Made by a program: the position numbers and the translations under genes. Below, in pieces: positions 48,608 through 64,000 of a stretch of 64,000 nt of DNA; the stretch's first letter is position 1, and every line of letters starts with the position of its first letter. The notes under the pieces were generated by a model that searched no databases, was not told where the DNA came from, and worked only from the letters and a program-made list of their open reading frames with translations. The stretch is from contig NZ_KB905841.1 of assembly GCF_000381065.1 (NCBI RefSeq), positions 130,326 to 194,325 on the forward strand, in the 5' to 3' direction. This stretch comes from Propionispira raffinosivorans DSM 20765 (lineage in GTDB: Bacteria; Bacillota; Negativicutes; Selenomonadales; Selenomonadaceae).

Positions 48608-49711
48608 TTATAATAATTTAATAATTTCATTATACGCCCGTTCTACGCGTGACACAAATCGCGGTGAATCCATCAGCGGCGATTTTAAAATACGCTCTGG
48701 CAAATTTTTATGTAAATACTGCAATTTATAGGAGTTTCCCGCCAAAAGCAATGCTTTTTTAATATACTCCTGCTCACTTTGAGCAATACATTCTTCCAAC
48801 GAAATATTTTTTAAAATACTATACCCCAAACGACCTTTATGCTGGCTTCCCGCCAGCGTTAAGACCGGTATGCCCCGATAAATGGCTTCACAAGTCGTCT
48901 CCCCACCAGTATAAGGAAATGTATCTAGAATTATATCAATATATGGGTATAGTTCTTTATCCGCATAGTGAACGGACAGTAGTTCCACCCGCTCCACCGG
49001 AAATCCCAAACGATCCAATCGATAACGGACCTCCTGGCAAGAAGCGCCGCTGCCGAACACCCGGCTTTTCAGTAGCAGCCGGGCAGTAGGAAGCTGCTTC
49101 AATATTTCCGCCCAAATCTGTAAAAAACCATCCGTAACTCTGGTAAAATGATGCAAACTGCCAAAGGTAATATAACCATTTTCCTCAAACGGCAGCTCAT
49201 TTGGGGTGATTGACTGCGGTACTGTATAACAAAAATGTGTTTGGGATAAACGATAAAGCTTCTCGGTAAAATAATCTTCTTTGCGCCCCATAGGGTCACA
49301 ATATTTATCCGTAAAAATATAATCTACCGTTGTGAGTTTCGTCGTATTATAAGATCCTACAAAACAAATTTGTACCGACGCCGGTTTAAAGCCAAGAATT
49401 GCCCAAAAACGGTTATGATGATATCCAGATAAATCCACCAAAATATCTAACCTGTCATGATGAATCAGCTGCACCGCTTTTTCAATGCTAAAATTAGATA
49501 CATCCCGCCAGCGGCTTACCCCATCCTGAAACTCCTGATAAGAAGCTACCAGTCCATCAACATAACAATACACCTGAAAATCAAGTCTCGTATAATCGAT
49601 CAAAAGCTGTCTGCGGAAAAAAATAACGTCTGCATCCTGCCAGGACGGTACCAGATAGCCTATTTTTATTTTACGTTTTGCCAAAACCTCTTTACGCATC
49701 TGCATCAACAT
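48608..49711 (-). CDS. SPINDLY/OGT-like (GT41) glycosyltransferase without TPRs
   Basis: A 367-residue GT-B enzyme of the O-GlcNAc-transferase type, expected to glycosylate Ser/Thr of a protein. N-lobe: KIKIGYLVPSWQDADVIFFRR and LDILVDLSGYHHNRFWAI, where the His of the usual GHT motif is replaced in context by GYHH. Acceptor/donor region: PASVQICFVGSYNTTKLTTVDYIFTDKYCDP, FGSLHHFTRVTDGFLQIWAEIL, and C-lobe IDIILDTFPYTGGETTCEAIYRGIPVLTLAGSQHKGRLGYSIL. Unlike its 50.6-kb paralogue it lacks an N-terminal TPR domain. Several Met codons near 49711 leave the exact start open. Adjacent YjfB and FlxA-like genes suggest flagellin as substrate (inference). Confidence 0.88.
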   Translation of the reverse strand: MLMQMRKEVLAKRKIKIGYLVPSWQDADVIFFRRQLLIDYTRLDFQVYCYVDGLVASYQEFQDGVSRWRDVSNFSIEKAVQLIHHDRLDILVDLSGYHHNRFWAILGFKPASVQICFVGSYNTTKLTTVDYIFTDKYCDPMGRKEDYFTEKLYRLSQTHFCYTVPQSITPNELPFEENGYITFGSLHHFTRVTDGFLQIWAEILKQLPTARLLLKSRVFGSGASCQEVRYRLDRLGFPVERVELLSVHYADKELYPYIDIILDTFPYTGGETTCEAIYRGIPVLTLAGSQHKGRLGYSILKNISLEECIAQSEQEYIKKALLLAGNSYKLQYLHKNLPERILKSPLMDSPRFVSRVERAYNEIIKLL

Positions 49712-50394: not shown

Positions 50395-50595
50395 CAGATA
50401 GAGATTTAATGCACAGCCTGCCTTGGCTGGATAATAATAGAGGGATTTAATTAATTGGGGCGGTTGTAATATGATTTATAAATAATTTTCCAGAGTTAGA
50501 AGCCCATTATTTAAGTTATGTGCCGCCTGCATCAACAGAAACGTCAATAAAAGAAACCAAAAGCCCAACAGATTAAATTTTGTAGGGCTTTTTTT
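50395..50595 (+). pseudogene. Short transcript with broken 34-codon ORF, or small RNA
   Basis: Bounded by the promoter copy and a terminator, this ~200-base stretch contains a good ribosome-binding site (GGGGCGG) and ATG at 50471, but that frame stops after four codons. Removing one T from the TTT at 50475-50477 would open 34 codons ending at 50576, with a C-terminus reading FPELEAHYLSYVPPASTET then SIKETKSPTD. It may be a frameshifted small gene or a non-coding RNA. No homologue is recognised. Confidence 0.4.
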
Positions 50596-50596
50596 A
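50559..50596 (+). terminator. Terminator ending the short plus-strand unit
   Basis: AAAAGCCC (50559-50566) - 18 bases - GGGCTTTT and further T residues to 50595. It overlaps the stop codon of the convergent GT41 gene and can also serve it in the other direction. Confidence 0.8.
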
Positions 50597-52264
50597 TTGC
50601 ATAAATTTACTTTGATAAGACTGCCACATGGATTGATACATACACTCAATATCTTTCATGTACTGCTTCTCATCCATTAAAGGTGATTCCAGCATACCCG
50701 CCCGCAAAGTTTTATGCAACGTGTCCAAAAGTGTAGGGTGTTTGGAAAATTCTATGGCTTTGGCAATATATTCCGCTTCCGACTCGGCAACCCACGCATC
50801 TAACCCAAGATTTTTCAAGATGCTATAGCCAAATCTGGCACCATGTCTTTGTCCTTTTAAAGTCAAAACCGGTATCCCCATATAAAGTGCATCAAATGTC
50901 GTGCCCCCGCCCGGATAGGGAAATGTATCCAGTGCAATATCGACCGAAAGATATTCATTCAAATAATCCAGTGAATCACCCCGCAGCTCAACTCGCTCCA
51001 AATCAAAACCAGCATTCTGCAAACGACCTTTCGCCAAATCACAAGCCGATGCGCCGTTGAAAATTTCTGTTTTCAATAAAAGACGACTGTCAGGAATACT
51101 TGCCATAATGGCTTGCCAAATCTGCAAAACTTCCTTTGTTATTTTCGCAAAATTATTAAAACAGCCAAAGGTAATAAATTTATTACGAATACAAGCAGCG
51201 CCTTGCGGCTCTTTCGCATCACTGCGACCCGTATATGAAAACTGGCTGTGCGGTAAACGATATAATTTTTCCACAAATTCATGATCACCAGCACCCGGTG
51301 GATCAACATACCGGTCTGTCAGGAAATAATCAACCGCCGCCAGCCCTGTCGTATTGACATATCCCAAACCAGATACCTGAACAGGTGCTGGTTTATAAGC
51401 CAAAATTGGCAGCCCGCCATTACAGGAATGCCCGCCAAGTTCCACTAAAATATCAATTTCATCCTCATAAATCAGCTGCGCCGCCCCAGCATAATCGGAA
51501 TAGTGAACCGTTCGCCAGCCATCAACTTTACTTTGCAACAGCTCTGTAAAGCCGTCCGCATCGCCCAATGAATAGCAAAGCACTTCATATGCCGTATGAT
51601 CATAAGCAGTTAATAAATTATACATAAAATAAAACATCACATGACTGCGAAAATCAGGTGAAAGATACCCGATCCGCAATTTTTTTTTACTTTTTGGCTT
51701 TGCATGTTTAAATAGCTTGATATTCGCAAAGAAATCCTGATACTTTTTATGTTTAGCAAAAAGTTCGACATTACTGATTCCATTTTCATAATGAAGACAT
51801 AATAAATAACCGCTGTAAGCCCGCACCTGCTCACCAAAGTCTTTATCACTGTGCACTGCCTTCAAATAAGAATCCACAGCCCGCCCCGGGCTTCCCAGTC
51901 GAAGCTGAAGGCTTCCCAGCCCCCGCAAAAGATTCGACAGGAAGACCTTATCTCGTTTACGCCTGCCACACGGTAAAACTCCAAGTGCCAGCTCAACCAT
52001 TTCCATCGCCTGCACATAGTCTTTGAGCTCTTCGTAAATATAGCTAAGCAAACTATAAGCTTCCGCATCATAACTCGTATGATACTGCACCGCTTTTTGT
52101 AATGCAGGAATAGCCGCTTCATTATTTTTTAATTGATAACAGGAAACTCCTAAAAAATACAGTAAATCTCCATTATCCGGCTCTGCCACCAGTCTCAGTT
52201 GAAGCTGCTGAATCATTTTCTCAAGCACTACATCTGTATTTGTTTGACAACTCTCTATTTTCAT
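50594..52264 (-). CDS. TPR + SPINDLY/OGT-like (GT41) glycosyltransferase
   Basis: A 556-residue enzyme from ATG 52264 (GGAG six bases upstream). Residues ~10-190 are tetratricopeptide repeats (DNGDLLYFLGVSCYQLKNNE, DAEAYSLLSYIYEELKDYVQ). Residues ~195-550 are the OGT catalytic region: KKLRIGYLSPDFRSHVMFYF, EIDILVELGGHSCNGGLPIL, KPAPVQVSGLGYVNTTGLAAVDYFLTDRYVDP, FGCFNNFAKITKEVLQIW and SVDIALDTFPYPGGGTTFDALYMGIPVLTLKGQRHGARFGYSIL. The catalytic histidine motif GH is conserved. Same architecture as eukaryotic OGT and as TPR-GT41 enzymes in selenomonad flagellin-modification loci. Probable substrate flagellin or another exported protein (inference). Confidence 0.92.
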   Translation of the reverse strand: MKIESCQTNTDVVLEKMIQQLQLRLVAEPDNGDLLYFLGVSCYQLKNNEAAIPALQKAVQYHTSYDAEAYSLLSYIYEELKDYVQAMEMVELALGVLPCGRRKRDKVFLSNLLRGLGSLQLRLGSPGRAVDSYLKAVHSDKDFGEQVRAYSGYLLCLHYENGISNVELFAKHKKYQDFFANIKLFKHAKPKSKKKLRIGYLSPDFRSHVMFYFMYNLLTAYDHTAYEVLCYSLGDADGFTELLQSKVDGWRTVHYSDYAGAAQLIYEDEIDILVELGGHSCNGGLPILAYKPAPVQVSGLGYVNTTGLAAVDYFLTDRYVDPPGAGDHEFVEKLYRLPHSQFSYTGRSDAKEPQGAACIRNKFITFGCFNNFAKITKEVLQIWQAIMASIPDSRLLLKTEIFNGASACDLAKGRLQNAGFDLERVELRGDSLDYLNEYLSVDIALDTFPYPGGGTTFDALYMGIPVLTLKGQRHGARFGYSILKNLGLDAWVAESEAEYIAKAIEFSKHPTLLDTLHKTLRAGMLESPLMDEKQYMKDIECMYQSMWQSYQSKFMQ

Positions 52265-52290
52265 TCGTCGCTCCATCATGAAAATTTTAT

Positions 52291-54301: not shown

Positions 54302-55924
54302 CTATTTTATCTCGATAATTTCTATTACTTCCTTCAGATCAGTAATTTTTTTGCTATTTTTTCGTTCAGCTTGTGTAATAAATAAACAAGAAAAATGATA
54401 CAGCTTCCAATCAGAAAACAAGTCTGTTATTTCTGCTTCAACGACATGATCTACATATTTCAACGCCATCAACATTCGTTTACAGTGTTTATATGATGAT
54501 CCCGCTTCATCTTGATCAGCATTCATTACCATATTTACTCCAACCAATAAATGATCACATTTCATTTTTGCCTTTTGCAAATTTCGAAGTTGTTGCCATT
54601 CCAACGTCTGAAGTGGATTCATAATATAATACCCAACTGGATATTTCTCTTGACTCTTGTCAAAACGAGCAATTTCGTTAGGTGAACCAAACAAGCCAGG
54701 AAAATTATCTGTATATATATAGTATTCTTCAATCCCCATCGTTCGAAGCTGCCTGCCAATTTCCCGAAAATAATTATTGCAAATAATGACATGCATTTTT
54801 TCTACCGCCATCGATTTCAATACTTCAGGGCTTTTTATAGGAATTCCAGCTTGCGTTATACCCCAGTTTTTCTGATCATTATCCACATAAAAATCCGGTT
54901 GAAATTTTCTGCCAACTTTCTGCAAATAATCATAAGTCATATTCCCCGTACCAAAAAGCACGATGGTTTTTCCATCTGTCTTTTTAAAAACATCCTGAAA
55001 CCGTCTTTGATATACTGCATACGATTCATCAAGATCCCATAATGCGGGATGGTGCGGTTCTCGCTCTCTTAATGGCAAATAAGATAAAAATTGTTTACCA
55101 TACTGTATTTCTAAACATCGCCAGAATCCCTTCGGTGCAGGCACTTGCAGATTTTCAAAATTTAAAATAATAACATCTGAAAAATCTTCTTTATAAAAAG
55201 TCAAATACTCATTTTTTTGATTATACGAGGTATAAATCGAAAATTCATTCGTTGTTTTTCTATTATACTGTTGACAAAAGCAGTTCAATTTCCTCTGTAA
55301 AAGACCCTTGTTTAAAAACTTTGCTATAAAAACGTATATTTCCCATTGCCATTTTTTTATACACTTATTTTTTCCTTGAGATATTTCTCGTTGCTGATAA
55401 TCTTTTTTATAAAATTTCGCCCATAAAAGTTTTTGGTAAAATGAAATTTTTTTTGCTTGTCCTCTACGTTTTTCAACATCATCAGCACAATTATCAAAAG
55501 GAAGGATATCAAGTCCAATTCCCTGATTAAACGTCTCCAAGAAAGTATGCTTTTCTATGCAAGTTGTATTACTATTACGAAACTTCATCATTCCTCGATG
55601 CCAAAACTCCGGATCAGTGTCTGTTGTCTGCAAAAAATATGGTTTTTCCGTCAAATAAGCTAAACTCTTCAATCTTTCAAAATCGGCTCGTGGCATCAAA
55701 ATATCAACATCATCATCCCATGGAATAAACCCTTGATGACGAACCGCTCCTAACAGCGTCCCAAAACCAATAAAATATTTCAACTGATATTTTGTACAAA
55801 GCTCTTGAAATACTGTCAATAAATCCAGATTAATTGCCCATACCTGCTTCATTTCTCTTGTTACGCGGTAATCAGAAATTATTTCTTCTTCAAAAAAGTC
55901 TTCCCGCAAGTTCACATGCATCAT
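54302..55924 (-). CDS. LicD-family protein with Rossmann-like module and degenerate cytidylyltransferase tail
   Basis: A three-part protein of ~540 residues. Residues ~30-290 are a LicD domain (YFIGFGTLLGAVRHQGFIPWDDDVDILMPRADFERL: the DDVD metal site is intact); relatives transfer phosphocholine or similar phospho-groups to glycans from a CDP donor. Residues ~322-411 are the cluster's shared Rossmann-like module (IVLFGTGN ... YVDNDQKNWG ... VIICNNYFREIGRQL). Residues ~430-543 align throughout with the N-terminal cytidylyltransferase of the neighbouring gene (HLLVGVNM, MALKYVDHVVEAE, WKLYHFSCLF), but GTFDLFHIGH is replaced by a segment lacking HxGH, so it cannot be catalytic. TTG 55933, ATG 55924 and ATG 55921 are all possible starts. 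Confidence 0.85.
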   Translation of the reverse strand: MMHVNLREDFFEEEIISDYRVTREMKQVWAINLDLLTVFQELCTKYQLKYFIGFGTLLGAVRHQGFIPWDDDVDILMPRADFERLKSLAYLTEKPYFLQTTDTDPEFWHRGMMKFRNSNTTCIEKHTFLETFNQGIGLDILPFDNCADDVEKRRGQAKKISFYQKLLWAKFYKKDYQQREISQGKNKCIKKWQWEIYVFIAKFLNKGLLQRKLNCFCQQYNRKTTNEFSIYTSYNQKNEYLTFYKEDFSDVIILNFENLQVPAPKGFWRCLEIQYGKQFLSYLPLREREPHHPALWDLDESYAVYQRRFQDVFKKTDGKTIVLFGTGNMTYDYLQKVGRKFQPDFYVDNDQKNWGITQAGIPIKSPEVLKSMAVEKMHVIICNNYFREIGRQLRTMGIEEYYIYTDNFPGLFGSPNEIARFDKSQEKYPVGYYIMNPLQTLEWQQLRNLQKAKMKCDHLLVGVNMVMNADQDEAGSSYKHCKRMLMALKYVDHVVEAEITDLFSDWKLYHFSCLFITQAERKNSKKITDLKEVIEIIEIK

Positions 55925-55952
55925 CCATTCCAATTTTCAGCTCGCATTTATT

Positions 55953-57485
55953 TTAAACAACCCATACAATTTTTCTTCTTTCAATTCCAAAGGTCACTAA
56001 GGTATTTTTGATTTCTTCTGCTATTTTTCTATTCAAAACAGCTATCATAATCTGATCAAATTCAACTTCATTTAAATGTTCAACCGGTTCCACTGGTAGT
56101 CCTTCTTGCTGCTTCAAAATATAATTTTTGTCAATCCAAGCCACGCATTTTTTATCTGAGATTTGCTGCAAACGATCATATAAATGTTGCCCCAATTTTC
56201 CCGCACCATAAATAGCTATTTTATGTTTCAAAATACTGTATGGCAAAGATAGACACTCTTCTACGCTGTCATGTTCTACCGCATATACCAAATTATCAAT
56301 TTGTTCATCATCTACAACATCCCTGCCAAATAATCGATCTAACTTACATTTTCCTAAAAGAAGCTGCACCCGAGGATCTCGTTCTTTTGACTGCAAGATA
56401 ATCCTCTCTCGTTTTGACAATGCCGTCGTTTTATCATGAATCGTATGAATCCCCATTTCTTTTGCGACTTTTATATCTGCAATCGCATTATCGCCACAAT
56501 GAACCCAATTAGAATATTCCGCGTTTTCCTGTTTTTGTACTACTTGATACAGACTGTTTGACGATTTGGTCCTTCCATATGCCGACGAAACATACAAAGG
56601 AATATCCCTCAGTTCTAAATTTACTTTTGTGAGCATCTTACGAATAATATCTTTTTCAAGATACATATCCGAAATAAACACAATTCGATGCCCAGCTTTT
56701 TTCAGCGCCTTTACCTGTGCAATATTTTTTTCTATACCAACGACGTTATCCAATTCCAACTGCTTTTCCAAATCAGTTAATATTTGAATCTGTTGCGAAT
56801 CAAGCATCTCATACATAGCAAAGATCTCATATATTTCATATAGAGTAATATCTTCCCTATCACAAAATTCATGTCGAGCTGCTCGTTCATAATAAATACG
56901 TAAATCATAGAAATTATTTTTTACTCGATCAGGCAGACAAAATTTTTCATTTTCCTGTAAATATTGCTGCATTAATGAAAAAATCCCTCTGGGTGTTGCC
57001 GTTTTTCTTGTAATCAATGTATCGAAAACATCGAAAGAAAAAAAATAATTTCCTTCATAAAGAATGGTTGATTTTACTCTCATCTTTATTTTAGTAGAGC
57101 TTGTCTCTTCCGTATAGGGAAAAAAGACTATATCCGATCCAAGATTTCGTAAAGCTTTCGTCAGTTCTTCCCACTCACCAGCATGATCATCCCCCGAAAA
57201 ATGGCAATCATAATGGTAAAGTTCCCATGCTTTGAGTTTATCTTCATTTAAAAAGTCCACTTTTTCTACCTGATCTACATATTTTATTGCTTTTACAATC
57301 ACAGCACGTTCACTATACGGAATATAAGGATACTCGCCCTTATATTTATAATTCAGTTCATCACTGGCCACACCAACAATCAAATACTCACAATAATCTT
57401 TAGCTTTTTTTAACAAATTCAAATGTCCAATATGAAAAAGGTCAAACGTTCCCTGCACATAACCTGTTTTATATTTTTTTTCCAT
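55953..57485 (-). CDS. Cytidylyltransferase - HAD phosphatase - Rossmann-module fusion
   Basis: 510 residues from ATG 57485 (AAGAGG upstream). Domain 1 (1-138) is a TagD/GCT-type cytidylyltransferase: GTFDLFHIGH at 12-21, and the other signature regions are replaced or shortened (SSTKIKMRV instead of the RTxGISTT box). Domain 2 (~148-400) is a HAD-like phosphatase: FSFDVFDTLITRKTATPRG (nucleophile D152), VFISDMYLEKDII and HCGDNAIADIKVAKEMG. Domain 3 (421-510) is the shared Rossmann-like module (IAIYGAGKLGQHLYDRLQ). Likely makes or turns over a CDP-activated small molecule used by the LicD neighbour (inference). The HAD core is paralogous to the next protein but lacks its ~400-residue middle domain. 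Confidence 0.85.
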   Translation of the reverse strand: MEKKYKTGYVQGTFDLFHIGHLNLLKKAKDYCEYLIVGVASDELNYKYKGEYPYIPYSERAVIVKAIKYVDQVEKVDFLNEDKLKAWELYHYDCHFSGDDHAGEWEELTKALRNLGSDIVFFPYTEETSSTKIKMRVKSTILYEGNYFFSFDVFDTLITRKTATPRGIFSLMQQYLQENEKFCLPDRVKNNFYDLRIYYERAARHEFCDREDITLYEIYEIFAMYEMLDSQQIQILTDLEKQLELDNVVGIEKNIAQVKALKKAGHRIVFISDMYLEKDIIRKMLTKVNLELRDIPLYVSSAYGRTKSSNSLYQVVQKQENAEYSNWVHCGDNAIADIKVAKEMGIHTIHDKTTALSKRERIILQSKERDPRVQLLLGKCKLDRLFGRDVVDDEQIDNLVYAVEHDSVEECLSLPYSILKHKIAIYGAGKLGQHLYDRLQQISDKKCVAWIDKNYILKQQEGLPVEPVEHLNEVEFDQIMIAVLNRKIAEEIKNTLVTFGIERRKIVWVV

Positions 57486-57502
57486 AAGTCTGCCTCTTTT
57501 TA

Positions 57503-59809
57503 TCATATATTTAAATATTCTACCACTTTTCCCAAACAAATAATCTTTTCATCTGGTATCCCCATGGAAAGGATATTTTCTCGAGCCTGCATAGCAAGCT
57601 GTGTATCAAGAATAGCAATCAATATTGCGTCATACGTAACCTCGCCCAATGCACATATATCTCCAGTAACTGGTTGCCCCTGTTTAATAAAACGAGAGTA
57701 ATTTTGATCCAGCCATTGCACAACTGAAACATTTGCCTGCTTCATGTAATAGTAAATTTCCCTACCATACTTCCCAGCCCCATAAAGAACTATTCGTTCA
57801 CCAAATAACGAATAAGGCAACCCCTGCGTTTGTAACGAAAAGCTTGGAGATTGGGGTACTATGGTATGCGTAAACCGCTCGTAACGCTGAATGACATCCA
57901 GTCGTTTTTTCTGATAAAATTCTATTTTACGTATCTCAAATACATTGCAGCGCAACCTAGAAAACTCTAAATCCGTTCCCTTATAATATTGATCAACTGC
58001 TTCATTAGGATGCCATAAATATATGTCCCGTATGTTTTGTTTCGTCAGCTTTGGTGCAAACCCTAATACCTTTTTTTCTCTTCCAGTAACACTATTTGGC
58101 ATATCCGCAAAAAAGTCCAATAGTTTTTGATCTGGATGATGCATTATATACTCCATATACTGTAGCAAAAGGTCAATCTGCACAGATACATGATACCTTT
58201 CTACAATAGATGCATACGCTTTAACAAAACCCTCTATGCCTTTGGTATAATCATCGTAACCATGCTCAATGATAGCCTCTCCTTCACCAGCCTTTAACAA
58301 CGGCACTACTTTATCGTTCTCTATCTTATATCCTTCCGTCTGTCCATGCGAAGCCCGACAAATCATCTCAATAACCAACTCATTTTTCAACTTACTTGGT
58401 AAAAAATTATAGTAGATACAATTTTTCATAAGATTAATTTTATCCATTTTAAAGAAAAACGTCCGTACAGGGCCATCATAAAAATCTTGCATAAGCTTTG
58501 CTAAGCAACTCTGTGTAAGTCCGCCACCACCTAGATCAACAAAAGCAAAATCATCATCCGAGGTATCCACTTCCTGCTGTAAATATCGCTGTACCAATAA
58601 TCGTGTCGGTCGTTGACGCTCAAAGAACCACCGACGGAACTCAAACTGCTTCTCTAACAACATAATACATATACATAAAGCGGCATATGATATCTGCCGC
58701 TTTGGATGGTGATATTCCTTAGGCAAAAAACGTTTAAGTTCATCCACAGTAACCTGCAACGTTTCTGCAAGCTTTTCCATCGTCGTAATACGTATAGGAT
58801 ACATCCAACCTATTAATCGTCGCAAACTCCCTAGCTCATTTTCATAAGATGGCATGCGCCAAGCCCTACGTGATCCATAAATATAATGTGTCGTAATCGG
58901 CAACTGCCATTTCGTTATTAAAATAGTTGCAATTTTTTGCAAGATATACCCGTCCCGAGCAATAAAATACAGTCGCCGAATACCTCTACGCTTAGCCTCC
59001 TCCAGCATCCACTGTACGTAAGGAAACAATATTGGTGCAGCTGCCGTACATCCTATGGCTGCTGCCTCACACCATTGCTCATGAAGTCGTTCATTTCGGC
59101 TTACGCCAATTAATAACTGCGTAAACATATCCTGCTCATGAGCATTCAATCGATCTGCCTCAATAGGCAAAAATGCTTCATAGCTAAATCTTTCGGCCCT
59201 GATACCTAACTGTCGGGGTTGCTCGACATCTGACTGTAGATTGTTCCCTACATGTTGCCAATTATAAAATTCTACATTTTCGCACTCCTGAACAACTTTA
59301 TACAATATTCCCGAAGATTTCCTTTTTTTATACTCTGACGAAACATATAGCGGAATTTCACTTAAAAATGCTTCTGCCTTTCTTAACATCTGGCGAATTG
59401 TTGCCGCATCCATATATGCATCCACAATCAAAACGACTCGTTCTCCCTGCTCCACTAACGATCTGACCCTGTCAATATTCTTCGTAACACCTATAACTTG
59501 GTCAATTTCCGTGTGCCGTTCCAATATAGCCAAGGACTCCAAAACGGCCATTGGCAGATTGCCAACGGTCCCCAGTGCCTCATATATTTGTTCAAGCGTT
59601 ACCTCCTCAACCCGATTACGCTGATAGTGCATACGCGCCAATTCCTCAGAATGAATACGCAACGCATAGAAATTCTCTCGAATATACTGTGACAGTTGCT
59701 CACTAAAAGACTTTTCCTGCAACCGCTGCTGCATAAGCGTGAAAATCCCACGCGGCGTTGCCGTAGTGCGTGTAATCAATGTATCAAAAACATCAAAACT
59801 ATAAAACAT
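57503..59809 (-). CDS. Large HAD-family protein with Rossmann-like C-terminal module
   Basis: 768 residues. N-terminal HAD domain (~1-200): YSFDVFDTLITRTTATPRG (nucleophile D6), VLIVDAYMDAATIRQML, HVGNNLQSDVEQPRQLG. The middle ~450 residues belong to the uncharacterised region often attached to HAD domains in polysaccharide loci: LYFIARDGYILQKIATIL, YIYGSRRAWRMPS, FAFVDLGGGGLTQSCLAKLM, RASHGQTEGY. The C-terminal shared module is at ~670-768 (IVLYGAGKYGREIYYYMKQ ... WLDQNYSRFIKQG). The first ~25 codons are strongly similar at DNA level to the HAD start of the neighbouring fusion gene. Probably cytoplasmic; reaction unknown. A 12-base gap follows the preceding gene. Confidence 0.8.
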   Translation of the reverse strand: MFYSFDVFDTLITRTTATPRGIFTLMQQRLQEKSFSEQLSQYIRENFYALRIHSEELARMHYQRNRVEEVTLEQIYEALGTVGNLPMAVLESLAILERHTEIDQVIGVTKNIDRVRSLVEQGERVVLIVDAYMDAATIRQMLRKAEAFLSEIPLYVSSEYKKRKSSGILYKVVQECENVEFYNWQHVGNNLQSDVEQPRQLGIRAERFSYEAFLPIEADRLNAHEQDMFTQLLIGVSRNERLHEQWCEAAAIGCTAAAPILFPYVQWMLEEAKRRGIRRLYFIARDGYILQKIATILITKWQLPITTHYIYGSRRAWRMPSYENELGSLRRLIGWMYPIRITTMEKLAETLQVTVDELKRFLPKEYHHPKRQISYAALCICIMLLEKQFEFRRWFFERQRPTRLLVQRYLQQEVDTSDDDFAFVDLGGGGLTQSCLAKLMQDFYDGPVRTFFFKMDKINLMKNCIYYNFLPSKLKNELVIEMICRASHGQTEGYKIENDKVVPLLKAGEGEAIIEHGYDDYTKGIEGFVKAYASIVERYHVSVQIDLLLQYMEYIMHHPDQKLLDFFADMPNSVTGREKKVLGFAPKLTKQNIRDIYLWHPNEAVDQYYKGTDLEFSRLRCNVFEIRKIEFYQKKRLDVIQRYERFTHTIVPQSPSFSLQTQGLPYSLFGERIVLYGAGKYGREIYYYMKQANVSVVQWLDQNYSRFIKQGQPVTGDICALGEVTYDAILIAILDTQLAMQARENILSMGIPDEKIICLGKVVEYLNI

Positions 59810-59821
59810 TCTGCATCATTC

Positions 59822-61774
59822 CTATTCTCTTGTATAAACCTTGTACCCAGCAACACCCATTTTCTCAAGTTGCGCTCCTACTTCCCAGTAAAAGCGACTA
59901 CAAACAATAACCTGTCGCTCATTTTCAGGTACATTTAAAATTTCTTGTGGATTCCTGATTTCTACACCACAGCGTTTTGTTCCCCATTTCTCCGTATCAT
60001 TATCTGCCACAAAAATCGGTGTATGTTCTTTGCCATGCTTTCGCATATAGCTATCAAATATAGAGCCAGCACAAAATATAACAATTTGCCTGTCCATAGG
60101 CCCTTCAAACAGCTCAGCAAATAAATCATGACATCTCTTTTCATCTAATCCAAGTAGACTTGCATTCCTCTGCATTTGCAGCGTATCCACTGCTGCCCAT
60201 CGATAAAATTGCCAATACAGTTCATGCTGTCGTACATCATGCAGAAAATGTTCATTCTCTTCCTGTAAAAAAATATCCCAAAGTTCTGTTAATCCATATT
60301 TTTCTTTTAACATATCTAAAGATATATATCGTTTCATCTGAGGCGTAAAAACATAAATATAATGAATGGCCCTGAACAGCACATATTTCGCTGGATAATT
60401 TTCCTTCACATATTCCTGATCAAAAAACAAGAAATCGCCATTGTGATAAAAACAATTTAACGGTATAAGCTCCAAGTAAGCTTGTTCCAAAATTGGCCCC
60501 CATTGAAGATTTTCTTCTCGCAGTAACGCATTTTTTTCAGGTGAAACATATTCCGCTGATTGCAAAATCAGCTGCCATAGGCGCTCAATAATATTCAAGA
60601 ATTCGCCTGGATGCCTTGTAACACTTTCCTTTAAATAATTGGATAGTGTATTTGCCTGAATCCGCGGCATAACAACACCGGTTCCGTCCCATACATGCGG
60701 TACCATCGGCACCCCACGATCCTCCAATTTTGTTGTCCTTGACACCAATGTCTTGGCATGGGCAATGCCCTCATCAAATATAGGTTTCTTGCAAACACGC
60801 TGATCAGAGTAAATAACTGTAGCAAATGCTCTATTTCTGCCTCGATCCGTGGAAATTGCTGCATAGATGACTTTTGAAAAATGCGCTGGCTGACCACACT
60901 CAATTAAATAAGAATTCGCAAAAAAGGGGAATACATTACCAGCAACAATATCGTCATATAAATCATTTTCATTCGCCAATAAAGTTTTAGGGTTCAAAGA
61001 ATATGGAATCAACCGTTCCTGTACATTTTTTTCTGGCAGATAGGCATCCGTATAGACAAGCTGTGGCAATTTATAATCCGGTAGCGGATAATAGAATTTT
61101 CGTTTCAGCACACCTGCCTGTTCCAAAATATTTTCCAGTTCATTTTTAGTGAAGGACTTTCCTAAAGCCCCCTTCATAAAACCACTAATGCCAGCAAATG
61201 ATCGATTAGCATGTGGCTCCTGCGCTCCACAAAAATATTTCAAACCATAACGGTTTTCGACCGCGATCAGCAACACTCCCGTTGGTTTCAAGAAAGCCCT
61301 CAGTTGACGAACATAATCCGCATAAACCTGTGGATTCCGATTTCCCTTTCCTATAGTTTCTAGTCCACCAGCAAGAATAATATAATCAAATTTTATTTCA
61401 GAAGGTAAAGTCGCTATCCCGCCTGCATAGACCGTAAGATTATCCCGTTCCGCATAACGCCGATAAACAGATTCAGCTCGGAAAGACTGCTCCTCTAATG
61501 CAGTCACTCTCGCACACTTTCGGCAAAATAACCCTGTAAGTGCCCCAAAAGCAGCTCCAATCTCTAAAAGATCTGACTCTTTTGTAAAATCGTACCAACT
61601 AAAGAGCCCCATACGTAAATCACTTAAATGATAAAAAACTTCCCACCGCGGGTCTTTTTGAATAACCTCATCATACTGGTCTGTTTTATTCGTTTCAATA
61701 TACTGCCGTATATCCATATCAATAACGTCTATTTCTTCAGCTATCTTGATTTTTGATTGATGGAAAATCGCCAT
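59822..61774 (-). CDS. Methyltransferase + kinase-like + Rossmann-module protein
   Basis: 650 residues, AAGGAGC eight bases before the ATG. Residues ~40-210 are a class I SAM methyltransferase (SDLLEIGAAFGALTGLFCRK, motif I at 70-77; FDYIILAGGLETIGKG; PTGVLLIAVENRYGLKYFCG). Residues ~270-520 look like a kinase/aminoglycoside-phosphotransferase-type fold: RVCKKPIFDEGIAHAKTL (possible ATP lysine), VVMPRIQANTLSNYL (hinge-like) and LIPLNCFYHNGDFLFFDQEY (catalytic/metal N and D). The order methyltransferase-kinase recalls WbdD, which caps O-antigen chains with phosphate and methyl groups. The C-terminal shared module spans 561-650. The kinase assignment is inference. Confidence 0.75.
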   Translation of the reverse strand: MAIFHQSKIKIAEEIDVIDMDIRQYIETNKTDQYDEVIQKDPRWEVFYHLSDLRMGLFSWYDFTKESDLLEIGAAFGALTGLFCRKCARVTALEEQSFRAESVYRRYAERDNLTVYAGGIATLPSEIKFDYIILAGGLETIGKGNRNPQVYADYVRQLRAFLKPTGVLLIAVENRYGLKYFCGAQEPHANRSFAGISGFMKGALGKSFTKNELENILEQAGVLKRKFYYPLPDYKLPQLVYTDAYLPEKNVQERLIPYSLNPKTLLANENDLYDDIVAGNVFPFFANSYLIECGQPAHFSKVIYAAISTDRGRNRAFATVIYSDQRVCKKPIFDEGIAHAKTLVSRTTKLEDRGVPMVPHVWDGTGVVMPRIQANTLSNYLKESVTRHPGEFLNIIERLWQLILQSAEYVSPEKNALLREENLQWGPILEQAYLELIPLNCFYHNGDFLFFDQEYVKENYPAKYVLFRAIHYIYVFTPQMKRYISLDMLKEKYGLTELWDIFLQEENEHFLHDVRQHELYWQFYRWAAVDTLQMQRNASLLGLDEKRCHDLFAELFEGPMDRQIVIFCAGSIFDSYMRKHGKEHTPIFVADNDTEKWGTKRCGVEIRNPQEILNVPENERQVIVCSRFYWEVGAQLEKMGVAGYKVYTRE

Positions 61775-61810
61775 ATTCTAACGCTCCTTATAACGAAATA
61801 AAGCCTTAAA

Positions 61811-63313
61811 TCATGAAATTAATAAGACTGGGCATTCTCGTACCCGCAACTGATGATGCATCAACCACACAGTCAGCATACGTTCAGCAATAAACCCTAT
61901 GATGCGTTTACTATAATCATCATACTTGCTAATATCGATAAAGCTCGCTGCATCAGTAATAAAAGAAAACAACCACTCACAATATACATCTAAAACGGCT
62001 TTTTTCATAACAAACATATTACAGGGATAAAAGGCCATTCCCAACATAACCATATCAAAAGCATCAACATATTCAGGCTGTCGTTGGATCAGCAAGTTCT
62101 TAACAATTTTCATTCCAATATCATAGGCATCTCTCATCACCCCATCAAATAGAACTTTGTTAACCGTCCGATCTGGATAGGAGCACTCTGCCCGCGCAAC
62201 TAGAACATCGTACTTTTTCAACCAATCTCTTATCACATCTTCGTCTAAAATATTATTCAAGGATTCATCCGTTTTATCCTTCAACAAATATCTTCTGTAA
62301 TGATTTAACCCTATATACTGACAATGCACATGCTTCCACATCCAGTATAGAGCCGTACATTCATTGATCCATGGATTCAGACTAGATATATTTTCACCTG
62401 TATCATCGCGAATATATCCATACCCAGCCTTGTTTTGACTACCAGCATGGATTGGTATATAGATTTTTCCTTTCGGTAGCGTAAATTTTTTGTGTGTGAC
62501 TACATAGACTTTCACAGTGTTCTTCAGTTGTCTATGTTTTTTAATCATCAAAAAACATGAAAAAGCATTGGCCACAACCTCAACCTGACCAAACTCTTGA
62601 AACACCATTTTTGTCCAATGCTTATAACGGCCATTATTTTGCCAAGGTATATTTAATATGATATACTCCGACAACAAATATGTTTGCCGTATATGTTCCT
62701 TACAGTCTTCGAGTTTCATATCAAAAAACGAATTCAGAAAAAGTATCGCATCATAATTTTGATTCATTAATTCACCTTTACGTGTATAGATATGCTCATA
62801 AAGATTATAGGAAGAAGCATATCTTTTCCCAGCAAGCAGTTTATAGCTATCCAGTAAGTATTCTCCATCAAGACCACACAATCGTGTATCTTGCCGATTT
62901 AGTACATCATATCTACCCAATTGCTGCCCAAAATCTAATACTGTTTTTAAGTTTTTTAGCCTCATACAAGAAATAATACCCTCCACTGAACGCCATGCAG
63001 AAAACATTTGTTTTTTCTCTATGCTAACCTTCTCTTTTTCAGCGTAAAAATACCAACTAAAAACCTTACTCTCCGGTATTTGTAAATCATTTACCAATTG
63101 CTTATATATCTCAAAAAAATTTTTTGTTGAAAAAATCACTATGCTGGAAAAATCGTACTGTTTAATTTCTTCTGGAGCAATAATTTTTTTTCCATAAAGA
63201 AAAGTGTGCTGTTTTTTCACACTATTATCAGCCAGACATAGTATTTGTTCAAAATCGATAACATCCCGCAGGCCCTTCAAAACTTCTCCTGTGCCAAATA
63301 AAACAGCAGCCAT
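61811..63313 (-). CDS. Rossmann-module - DUF4422 putative glycosyltransferase
   Basis: 500 residues. Here the shared module is N-terminal (1-90: AAVLFGTGEVLKGLRDV, LCLADNSVKKQHTFLYG, VIFSTKNFFEIYKQLV). A middle segment (~105-250, LKTVLDFGQQLGRYDVLNRQ) may be a weak methyltransferase-like fold. The C-terminal half (~255-500) is DUF4422: VYVVTHKKFTLPKGKIYIPI, YIRDDTGENISSLNPWINEC, TALYWMWKH, YIGLNHYRRYL, a family treated as glycosyltransferases of capsule/LPS loci. GGGG lies six bases upstream of the ATG. Confidence 0.8.
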   Translation of the reverse strand: MAAVLFGTGEVLKGLRDVIDFEQILCLADNSVKKQHTFLYGKKIIAPEEIKQYDFSSIVIFSTKNFFEIYKQLVNDLQIPESKVFSWYFYAEKEKVSIEKKQMFSAWRSVEGIISCMRLKNLKTVLDFGQQLGRYDVLNRQDTRLCGLDGEYLLDSYKLLAGKRYASSYNLYEHIYTRKGELMNQNYDAILFLNSFFDMKLEDCKEHIRQTYLLSEYIILNIPWQNNGRYKHWTKMVFQEFGQVEVVANAFSCFLMIKKHRQLKNTVKVYVVTHKKFTLPKGKIYIPIHAGSQNKAGYGYIRDDTGENISSLNPWINECTALYWMWKHVHCQYIGLNHYRRYLLKDKTDESLNNILDEDVIRDWLKKYDVLVARAECSYPDRTVNKVLFDGVMRDAYDIGMKIVKNLLIQRQPEYVDAFDMVMLGMAFYPCNMFVMKKAVLDVYCEWLFSFITDAASFIDISKYDDYSKRIIGFIAERMLTVWLMHHQLRVRECPVLLIS

Positions 63314-63427
63314 TTTTCGCCCCCTAATAATGTGTGTTCAGTACAAATCATCCATATAATACATTTAGCTAATAGATTTGACATGTCTTACAGTTTATAT
63401 AAATATTATACACATGCCAAGGCTCAC

Positions 63428-64000
63428 CTAATATTTTTCATTTAACAATCTATAATATACTTGGACCAGCTTTTTTTCAATATCAGAAAAAAATATAAAA
63501 TCAACATTCTTTTTTAGTTGAACTGTCTCTAATTTCGCCCCGACTTCTCCCTCGTATTTTTTAGTTGCTACTATAATAATGGACTTTTTCATCGCAATAT
63601 CTTTATCTTTAGGATTTTGTAATAATATATTTAAAGCACTTTTTTGTAAATTTACGTTAGTTTCATATATTGCACAAACTCCAACACGGCACATTCGTAA
63701 TAAATTTACACATCTTTTTCCTATAATTCCAAACCCCCAAACACTATATAGCAAGTCTGCTTTCAATACTAAATTTAAAGCTTTTCTAACTCTCTCTATA
63801 TTCTTTTCTTGAACGATTCTTTTGTATAAACACGTAATTATATAATCAGTACGTAATTCCATATAATTTTTCTTATTCGTATAAAGACTAACTGCCTCAT
63901 CATAACGATAACCATAACTTTGAATAATTGACCACCATATATCGAAATTATCCTTATACCATCCATGACACCCGAATGGTAAGTATTTTTTCAACGTTTT
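63428..64000 (-). CDS. Partial DUF5672-like protein with C-terminal Rossmann-like module
   Basis: The frame is open to the window edge; 190 residues are visible. It begins in KKYLPFGCHGWYKDNFDIWW, which resembles the C-terminal end of DUF5672-type glycosyltransferase-like domains (PFGxHGW). A helical stretch follows and then the shared module (~80-175: YSVWGFGIIGKRCVNLL, AIYETNVNLQKSALNILLQN, SIIIVATKKYEGEVGAKLE). The TTG at 63992-63994 is not taken as the start because homology and frame continue upstream. The most AT-rich gene of the window. Confidence 0.65.
   Translation of the reverse strand, partial: KTLKKYLPFGCHGWYKDNFDIWWSIIQSYGYRYDEAVSLYTNKKNYMELRTDYIITCLYKRIVQEKNIERVRKALNLVLKADLLYSVWGFGIIGKRCVNLLRMCRVGVCAIYETNVNLQKSALNILLQNPKDKDIAMKKSIIIVATKKYEGEVGAKLETVQLKKNVDFIFFSDIEKKLVQVYYRLLNEKY

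Follow-up and report, generated by a model that had tools for sequence, protein, structure and literature searches.

A Rossmann-like module shared by most enzymes of a variable glycan island in Propionispira raffinosivorans: a possible nucleotide-loaded docking tag

The window analyzed here, a stretch of 64,000 nucleotides of Propionispira raffinosivorans DSM 20765 (Selenomonadaceae), is part of contig C3 of a genome of 4.13 Mb. From position 54,302 to its end the window encodes six consecutive mosaic proteins, each carrying one copy of a Rossmann-like module of about 90 residues. We tentatively propose that this module, which is PF22674/PglD_N-like, acts as a predicted nucleotide-loaded docking tag for the glycan enzymes of an island that would likely decorate flagellin. 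Proteins carrying the module are called tagged in the following.

Homology, copies and fold of the module

The module has a Gly-rich loop after strand 1 and, in most copies, an Asp-Asn-like turn after strand 2. A Gly-x-Pro/x-Ile/Val segment and a hydrophobic strand follow, and then a helix that shows an EIxxQL-like pattern in part of the copies. A preliminary description of the window had recognized one such segment on six different catalytic domains and had proposed building a hidden Markov model from the copies. Leave-one-out models recovered all 13 modules of the island (13/13) at 11.7–51.4 bits, 12 of them at 19.8–51.4 bits, compared with 8.9 bits for the best of 1400 shuffled proteins over all tests. 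Among the 145 other open reading frames (ORFs) of the region, the sole higher scorer was a truncated copy of the window's edge gene itself. Two pairs of close paralogues, the DUF5672 copies and the later two RgpF copies, do not give independent tests. With a profile of 84 sequences (five window modules and 79 from other organisms), 14 places in the island reached E ≤ 1e-5, and the rest of the genome gave a single partial match (E = 0.0075) up to E = 0.01. This wide profile also takes in the Methyltransf_14 C-terminal domain, which was counted apart in the window's island only. A sequence search with the module of the LicD protein returned only seven proteins. Rossmann enzymes of the same islands were untagged: none of 16 of the GDP-mannose-dehydratase type, none of 8 CDP-glucose dehydratases (three proteins being common to these two sets) and none of 11 UDP-galactopyranose mutases. 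The leave-one-out tests make chance or generic Rossmann similarity unlikely, as do 58 unflagged enzymes making nucleoside diphosphate (NDP) sugars, many of them Rossmann proteins. The profiles and two modelled copies thus support one homologous module on different enzymes.

All six segments were found in the proteins that had been named, which are encoded on the minus strand. The first protein (54302..55933, 543 aa) consists of a LicD phosphotransferase (PF04991, E = 5.8e-39 at residues 46-279), the module at residues 320-412 (54698..54976; 51.4 bits in the leave-one-out test, AlphaFold pLDDT 92.1) and a degenerate cytidylyltransferase-like tail. Residues 443-500 of this tail (54434-54607) match TIGR01518 with E = 2.6e-4, below its cut-off, and the HxGH motif is gone on direct reading; the tail is likely a pseudoenzyme remaining from a module-cytidylyltransferase fusion. 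In the second protein (55953..57539), a cytidylyltransferase (PF01467, E = 2e-17) is joined to a HAD domain (HAD_2, 4.5e-5) and a module (55956..56234; 36.9 bits). This module had been placed at residues 421-510; it is present, with an offset of 15-18 residues that stems from the choice of start codon, the true start being likely near 57485, at an in-frame ATG opening MEKKYK. The long HAD protein (57503..59809, 768 aa) is an ORF with a sub-threshold PglD_N match as its only Pfam match. Its HAD part is homologous, via relatives, to that of its neighbour, and its C-terminal module (57524..57808) is the most divergent of all copies (11.7 bits, E = 0.015). The next protein (59822..61774, 650 aa) combines a methyltransferase (PF13489, E = 1.7e-5, just below the cut-off), a kinase-like part and a C-terminal module (59825..60103; 27.5 bits); the kinase-like part has no Pfam match and was assigned by reading the sequence alone. 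The fifth protein (61811..63313, 500 aa) starts with the module (63044..63313; 25.8 bits; PF22674 with E = 3.6e-5, below the cut-off) and ends with DUF4422 (PF14393, E = 2e-64 at 268-487). The edge gene (63428..64000) encodes a DUF5672 protein (PF18922, E = 1.6e-46 for the whole protein) with a C-terminal module at about 63461-63751 (22.7 bits). It is cut by the window; the whole protein has 402 aa, with about 636 bases lying beyond the edge and the module at residues ~296-392.

Beyond the window edge, a second DUF5672 protein, three RgpF proteins, an FkbM methyltransferase, a standalone module of 128 aa adjoining a glycyl-radical enzyme and a radical-SAM-like protein are also tagged, the last label coming from clustering with a Pfam-scanned representative. 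The six tagged genes in a row that had been described all carry the module, and the row is longer: eight consecutive genes (LicD, cytidylyltransferase-HAD, long HAD, methyltransferase-kinase, DUF4422, two DUF5672 and RgpF) are tagged. The island as a whole spans 29 kb and extends past the window edge. Between the LicD and the radical-SAM protein, 14 of 21 ORFs of at least 120 aa are tagged, 13 with clear modules and one with a remote copy in a C-methyltransferase domain; this count was made by hand, as a listing with duplicates removed showed two tagged genes as untagged.

AlphaFold models of two window copies (pLDDT 92 and 94) matched the same solved folds. Rex was the first Foldseek match and among the closest folds, which included 2g6t (which we take to be CAC2185), 3nkl and WbaP (8t53); PglD-type proteins, PerB and KijD1 were also matched. 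Absence from the fold list was never counted as evidence. The modelled modules share the fold of 2g6t and that of the WbaP domain and 3nkl, the PF13727 (CoA_binding_3, WbaP/FlaA1) fold. For PF22674 (C2185-like_N, cut-off 27 bits), two window proteins scored 23.2 and 24.4 bits, the others not being listed, a relative reached 35.7 bits, above the cut-off, and the LicD protein of the window (P0001) carries an assignment to the newer PF22674.3. For PglD_N (PF17836, cut-off 23.4 bits), two window proteins remained below the cut-off (19.8 and 21.3 bits) and two relatives exceeded it (25.8 and 24.3 bits). The domain type is already known, as PF22674, PglD_N and PF13727, and the earlier label Rossmann-like, in the sense of a nucleotide-binding fold, is largely supported by the fold matches and by the conserved loop glycines.

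Distribution of the module and its host enzymes

Within the Selenomonadaceae, 101 of 189 genomes had a module match, some with more than 20. From a scan with the methyltransferase-kinase protein, 80 of 190 loci were kept, which came from Selenomonas, Anaerovibrio, many Lachnospiraceae, Paenibacillus oryzae and a metagenome-assembled genome of the Peptococcaceae; 79 of these 80 contained at least one tagged ORF, 67 at least three and 56 at least five. Some of these loci are the same records as other regions, and identical proteins were merged in most counts, but not in these per-locus counts. Loci with three or more neighbouring tagged genes, for which a search had been suggested, thus occur in many genomes. 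In a scan of the phylum, 143 of 249 genomes matched at 1e-6, many of the listed matches having the ORF lengths of Rex/FlaA1-type proteins.

In all, 710 distinct tagged proteins were collected from Selenomonadaceae, Lachnospiraceae and others. Leaving aside 25 with short non-module parts, the remaining 685 formed 124 clusters by their non-module part, 76 of them with a single protein. The module was C-terminal in 351 cases, N-terminal in 245, internal in 102 and standalone in 23. A Pfam scan of 30 representatives identified GT2, GT4, GT90, WbsX, TagF-like, pyruvyl transferase and MptE/Maf-like hosts, as well as FkbM, TylF and other methyltransferases, radical SAM, deacetylase, TupA ATP-grasp and TIM-barrel proteins; a few representatives had no Pfam match, and the RgpF host was identified separately.

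Between the first and the last tagged gene of islands with at least three tagged genes, 687 of 899 ORFs (76%) were tagged. Since a high density of modules was the reason for choosing loci L008-L047, and resemblance to the methyltransferase-kinase protein that for choosing L048-L127, this is the rate inside such islands and not a genome-wide one. In 40 regions and the window's island, 216 of 216 successive tagged pairs were on the same strand, 151 with a gap of less than 300 bases. Some families were always tagged (FkbM 20/20, GT4 19/19, RgpF 20/20, WbsX 9/9, DUF5672 10/10), others mostly (GT2 156/167, TagF-like 22/24, methyltransferase-kinase 99/110, radical SAM 9/11, TylF 6/7) or partly (DUF4422 27/32, long HAD 14/18, TIM-barrel 59/112, LicD 8/19). 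None of the 58 distinct NDP-sugar makers of six kinds found as island homologues was tagged (0/58), nor were any of the glycyl-radical enzymes and their activases. The tagged families were chosen because they are tagged, and the untagged ones were the largest untagged clusters or the NDP-sugar genes of the window's genome; given this choice, the informative part of these counts is the split between functional classes.

The module is not bound to one end of its host, or to a host at all. In 6 of 48 host clusters with several members it is N-terminal in some proteins and C-terminal in others. All four distinct glycyl-radical enzymes (4/4) have a standalone module gene just upstream, although loci L054, L058 and L060 may be related islands, so that this may represent two independent events. 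Ten of the 23 standalone modules adjoin an untagged enzyme whose relatives elsewhere are module fusions. Small standalone ORFs may include frame-shifted fusions, the gap being 0 or -10 bases in four of these ten split cases; a split into 393 and 158-161 aa was found in three genomes, two of them nearly alike. Finding proteins fused in one genome and as separate neighbours in another is classically taken to indicate that they are functionally linked in trans. Placement at either end and standalone modules beside untagged enzymes speak in favour of a tether-like role.

Several arrangements were observed in passing. At L003:16611-19332, a pyruvate-formate-lyase-like glycyl-radical enzyme lies inside the island together with a standalone module gene and, separated by a gap, an activase gene, and the Lachnospiraceae loci L054, L058 and L060 show the same kind of arrangement. 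Between a standalone module gene and an activase gene at L005:1833-2437, about 600 bases contain no coding-strand ORF of at least 60 aa. Maf/MptE-like proteins, possibly flagellin glycosyltransferases, are tagged at L025:5427-6737, L049:1226-2539 and L018:1332-2708, one in tandem; in L018 the module and the Maf/MptE-like enzyme are two adjacent genes. A methyltransferase-kinase-module-cytidylyltransferase (~750 aa) paired with a TIM-barrel-module protein (~412 aa) recurs in L033, L045, L026, L027, L030, L034, L039 and L041. The modules of this pair are unusually alike, and the two proteins may belong to a pathway for a CDP-activated substituent. Near an island end, at L004:4664-6097, cytidylyltransferase-like and oxidoreductase-like domains stand in one protein on our reading.

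Island exchange and linkage to flagellin

The window's island was compared with the corresponding locus of a genome of the same genus (window 53.2 kb to G000:C3 ~219 kb versus G001:C38 ~31-66 kb). The genes before the island (window 32-52 kb), among them those for a CtpB-like protease, FtsX, SecA, S30EA and GT41, are mostly 95-100% identical between the two genomes, as is the flagellin cluster after the island (contig C38 of the window's genome); exceptions are the bordering TPR gene (87%) and one antisense ORF (91%). Two GT41-type genes (48608-49711 and 50594-52279, one with TPR repeats) lie on this conserved side. Between the conserved flanks, the same-genus genome carries a different set of genes with seven tagged ORFs, one of them weak. 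Near-identical flanks around different islands at the same place point to island exchange, and synteny with the same-genus genome links the window's island to flagellin.

Flagellins were present in all 12 genomes searched first, including that of the window, and often shared a contig with modules. In pieces of about 20 kb, flagellin was found in 10 loci, near what random pieces might give; consequently, whole genomes were used. Ten single-contig genomes were considered, of which eight have at least three modules within 30 kb. In five of these eight, flagellin lay within 50 kb (14-47 kb) of the modules; the 50-kb limit was set after seeing the data, and genome lengths were rounded for five of the genomes. 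In a ninth genome, with two clear modules, flagellin was found at 7 kb. By inference, the window's island would be a variable flagellar glycosylation island, and flagella would be a frequent but not a constant use of the module system.

Possible function and comparison with known systems

A module that is position-free, occurs in cis or in trans, sits on transferases and modifiers but not on NDP-sugar makers, and is lineage-wide without being matched to the locus would be fitted best by a generic docking tag. By this account most enzymes that transfer or modify glycans in a swappable island have the module either as a fused part or as a neighbouring gene, and it would bind nucleotide and would pair with other modules or with a common hub. 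Such pairing would keep the enzymes of glycan assembly together, with the soluble NDP-sugar makers staying outside. Since such a plug would belong to the lineage rather than to a single locus, an enzyme acquired by gene transfer would fit immediately, and islands could be exchanged whole. That a universal snap-on plug, acting in cis or in trans, makes a plug-and-play assembly line of a surface-glycan locus, in this case a flagellar one, with any incoming transferase or modifier usable immediately, and that this is why near-identical strains exchange whole islands, is a speculative extension which we consider possible at best.

A number of observations weigh against the docking tag. First, tagging is optional: the module is missing from a separate GT2 cluster (0/10), sulfatases (0/5) and GDPD proteins (0/8), and it is found on only part of the TIM-barrel (59/112) and LicD (8/19) proteins. 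The tagged cytidylyltransferase and kinase-like domains act on small molecules, which blurs the functional split. Second, in 62% of 259 cases the nearest module in another genome had a host of the same cluster, against 9.6% expected, and modules of adjacent host clusters were not significantly more similar to each other (p 0.12-0.26). Third, the full ligand signature described below is found in about half of the modules, and a nucleotide loop suits a sensor as well as a dock. Fourth, in three of the eight genomes (G061, G070 and G163, two of one genus) the module cluster lies 348-788 kb from the nearest flagellin, and the distance test over all eight genomes gave a combined p of only 0.005. 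This test replaced one with six hand-picked genomes, one of which had only two modules (combined p ~1e-4). In G061, G070 and G163 the system may serve another surface glycan; the clusters are located at G061:C1 1.526-1.531 Mb, G070:C1 2.254-2.260 Mb and G163:C1 1.312-1.319 Mb.

The second of these points bears on the form that docking could take. In general, locus-mates do not carry each other's closest modules, by nearest-neighbour and adjacency tests, the former with coarse host clusters and without modules below 25 bits (5 of 264) and the latter with finer clusters. The nearest module on a different host was in the same genome in 24 of 259 cases (3.4% expected). A locus-specific docking code is therefore rejected as a general rule and unlikely, because modules track the host enzyme and not the locus; any docking would be promiscuous or directed to a lineage-wide partner. 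Exceptions exist. The recurrent methyltransferase-kinase-cytidylyltransferase and TIM-barrel pair, adjacent ten times, has a mean module similarity of 46 bits, and in the window's island the LicD and methyltransferase-kinase proteins, the two HAD proteins, two RgpF copies and the two DUF5672 copies have modules alike. The LicD and methyltransferase-kinase modules match with 67 bits, and the nearest relative of either is the one module of a methyltransferase-kinase-LicD fusion protein found in L021 and L042. Where the methyltransferase-kinase/LicD enzyme is two polypeptides, each has its own module.

The main rival is a shared nucleotide sensor, in which one nucleotide, such as the UMP or CMP released by transfer (uridine or cytidine monophosphate), would switch all island enzymes without assembling them. 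The ligand signature was counted in 259 modules and in 481 modules from the loci scanned with the methyltransferase-kinase protein, after removal of those below 25 bits (5 of 264 and 11 of 492). Conservation of the first two loop glycines, at 95-97%, suits a sensor; the third position is Gly, Ala or Ser in 79% and 68%, respectively. An acidic residue ends strand 2 in 79-80%, again as a sensor would have it, and a Val/Ile-Ser/Thr pair takes its place in 18% (46 of 259 and 87 of 481); in the window's genome this acid is missing from the standalone module and from all three RgpF copies. The complete set, three loop positions plus the acid, is seen in only 134 of the 259 and 225 of the 481 modules, a gap in about half of the copies that also counts against a sensor. 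The first Foldseek match, Rex, is an NADH sensor. The WbaP domain of like fold is stabilized by UMP, UDP and UTP (uridine mono-, di- and triphosphate) and contributes to dimerization of the enzyme, UMP inhibits WbaP with an apparent IC50 (half-maximal inhibitory concentration) of 4.1 μM, and its authors propose a one-size-fits-all control (PMC10942596). The corresponding region of Myxococcus EpsZ is modelled as a contact site of a response regulator (PMC12802240). The studied relatives of the fold thus tie nucleotide response and assembly to one domain, and the modules may bind nucleotide as the WbaP domain does. Feedback would, however, be expected at the NDP-sugar makers, its usual targets, which are untagged (0/58), and a standalone module beside a glycyl-radical enzyme must first bind the enzyme to regulate it. 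We consider the sensor somewhat unlikely; for the docking tag, the kept loop suggests a dock that would be loaded with or gated by nucleotide.

A handle holding the nucleotide part of an NDP-linked glycan while the adjoining domain works on the sugar is improbable. In PglD-type acetyltransferases and sugar C-methyltransferases the domain binds the nucleotide part of an NDP-sugar, and the fold matches include PglD-type, PerB and KijD1 structures; VioB matches the module in sequence (E = 4.7e-6), and an alignment with the module is also obtained for the island's Methyltransf_14 C-terminal domain. GT2, GT4 and FkbM enzymes, which are among the many hosts, as a rule do not use NDP-linked acceptors. 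Moreover, a module that occurs at either end of the same enzyme (6/48 clusters) or as a separate gene is unlikely to have a fixed place in the active site, which speaks against the handle and makes a role in completing active sites unlikely as well. Least probable of all is the absence of a common role, a generic segment of a widespread superfamily (143/249 genomes of the phylum) having been captured repeatedly and inherited with each enzyme for differing services such as folding, solubility or local dimers: it would explain why modules follow host clusters (62% versus 9.6%), but not the tagging of 76% of island ORFs and of every homologue in several families, the concentration of matches in one island of the window's genome or the standalone copies repeatedly found beside untagged enzymes.

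Bacterial glycan loci swap enzymes fast, which raises the question of how newcomers find the right substrate and partners. That one module marks roughly three in four genes of such islands, at least in Selenomonadaceae and Lachnospiraceae, points to a general answer. It would also provide a sequence handle for glycan-assembly enzymes without assigned function (DUF4422, DUF5672 and long HAD proteins) and could become a part for the engineering of glycan pathways.

Literature searches, which covered titles and the starts of abstracts of open-licence papers, did not find the module described as a near-universal tag of glycan islands, and word searches of the text consulted of two papers on flagellar islands (PMC13317340, PMC5109656) did not find Rossmann mentioned. 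The nearest known systems differ from the module in distinct ways. The N-terminal domain of CAC2185 (2g6t, PF22674) is known from a single deposited protein, unlike modules that tag whole islands. WbaP (8t53, PF13727) and the FlaA1-type protein 3nkl are membrane enzymes with one such domain each, and in the sources as far as consulted islands of variously fused enzymes are not described for them. The C-terminal domain of sugar C-methyltransferases (KijD1, PF08484) matches the module in fold and belongs to the catalytic unit of these enzymes. Polyketide synthase docking domains and the cohesin-dockerin system place one small domain type on many pathway enzymes; the module differs in its Rossmann-like fold, with no receptor and no sequence-matched pairs found, and is like them in this placement. 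PglD_N (PF17836) of the PglD, VioB and NeuD acetyltransferases is like the module in the kind of fold and, for VioB, in the D-N turn. It belongs to one enzyme class, whereas the module is independent of position and is found on many.

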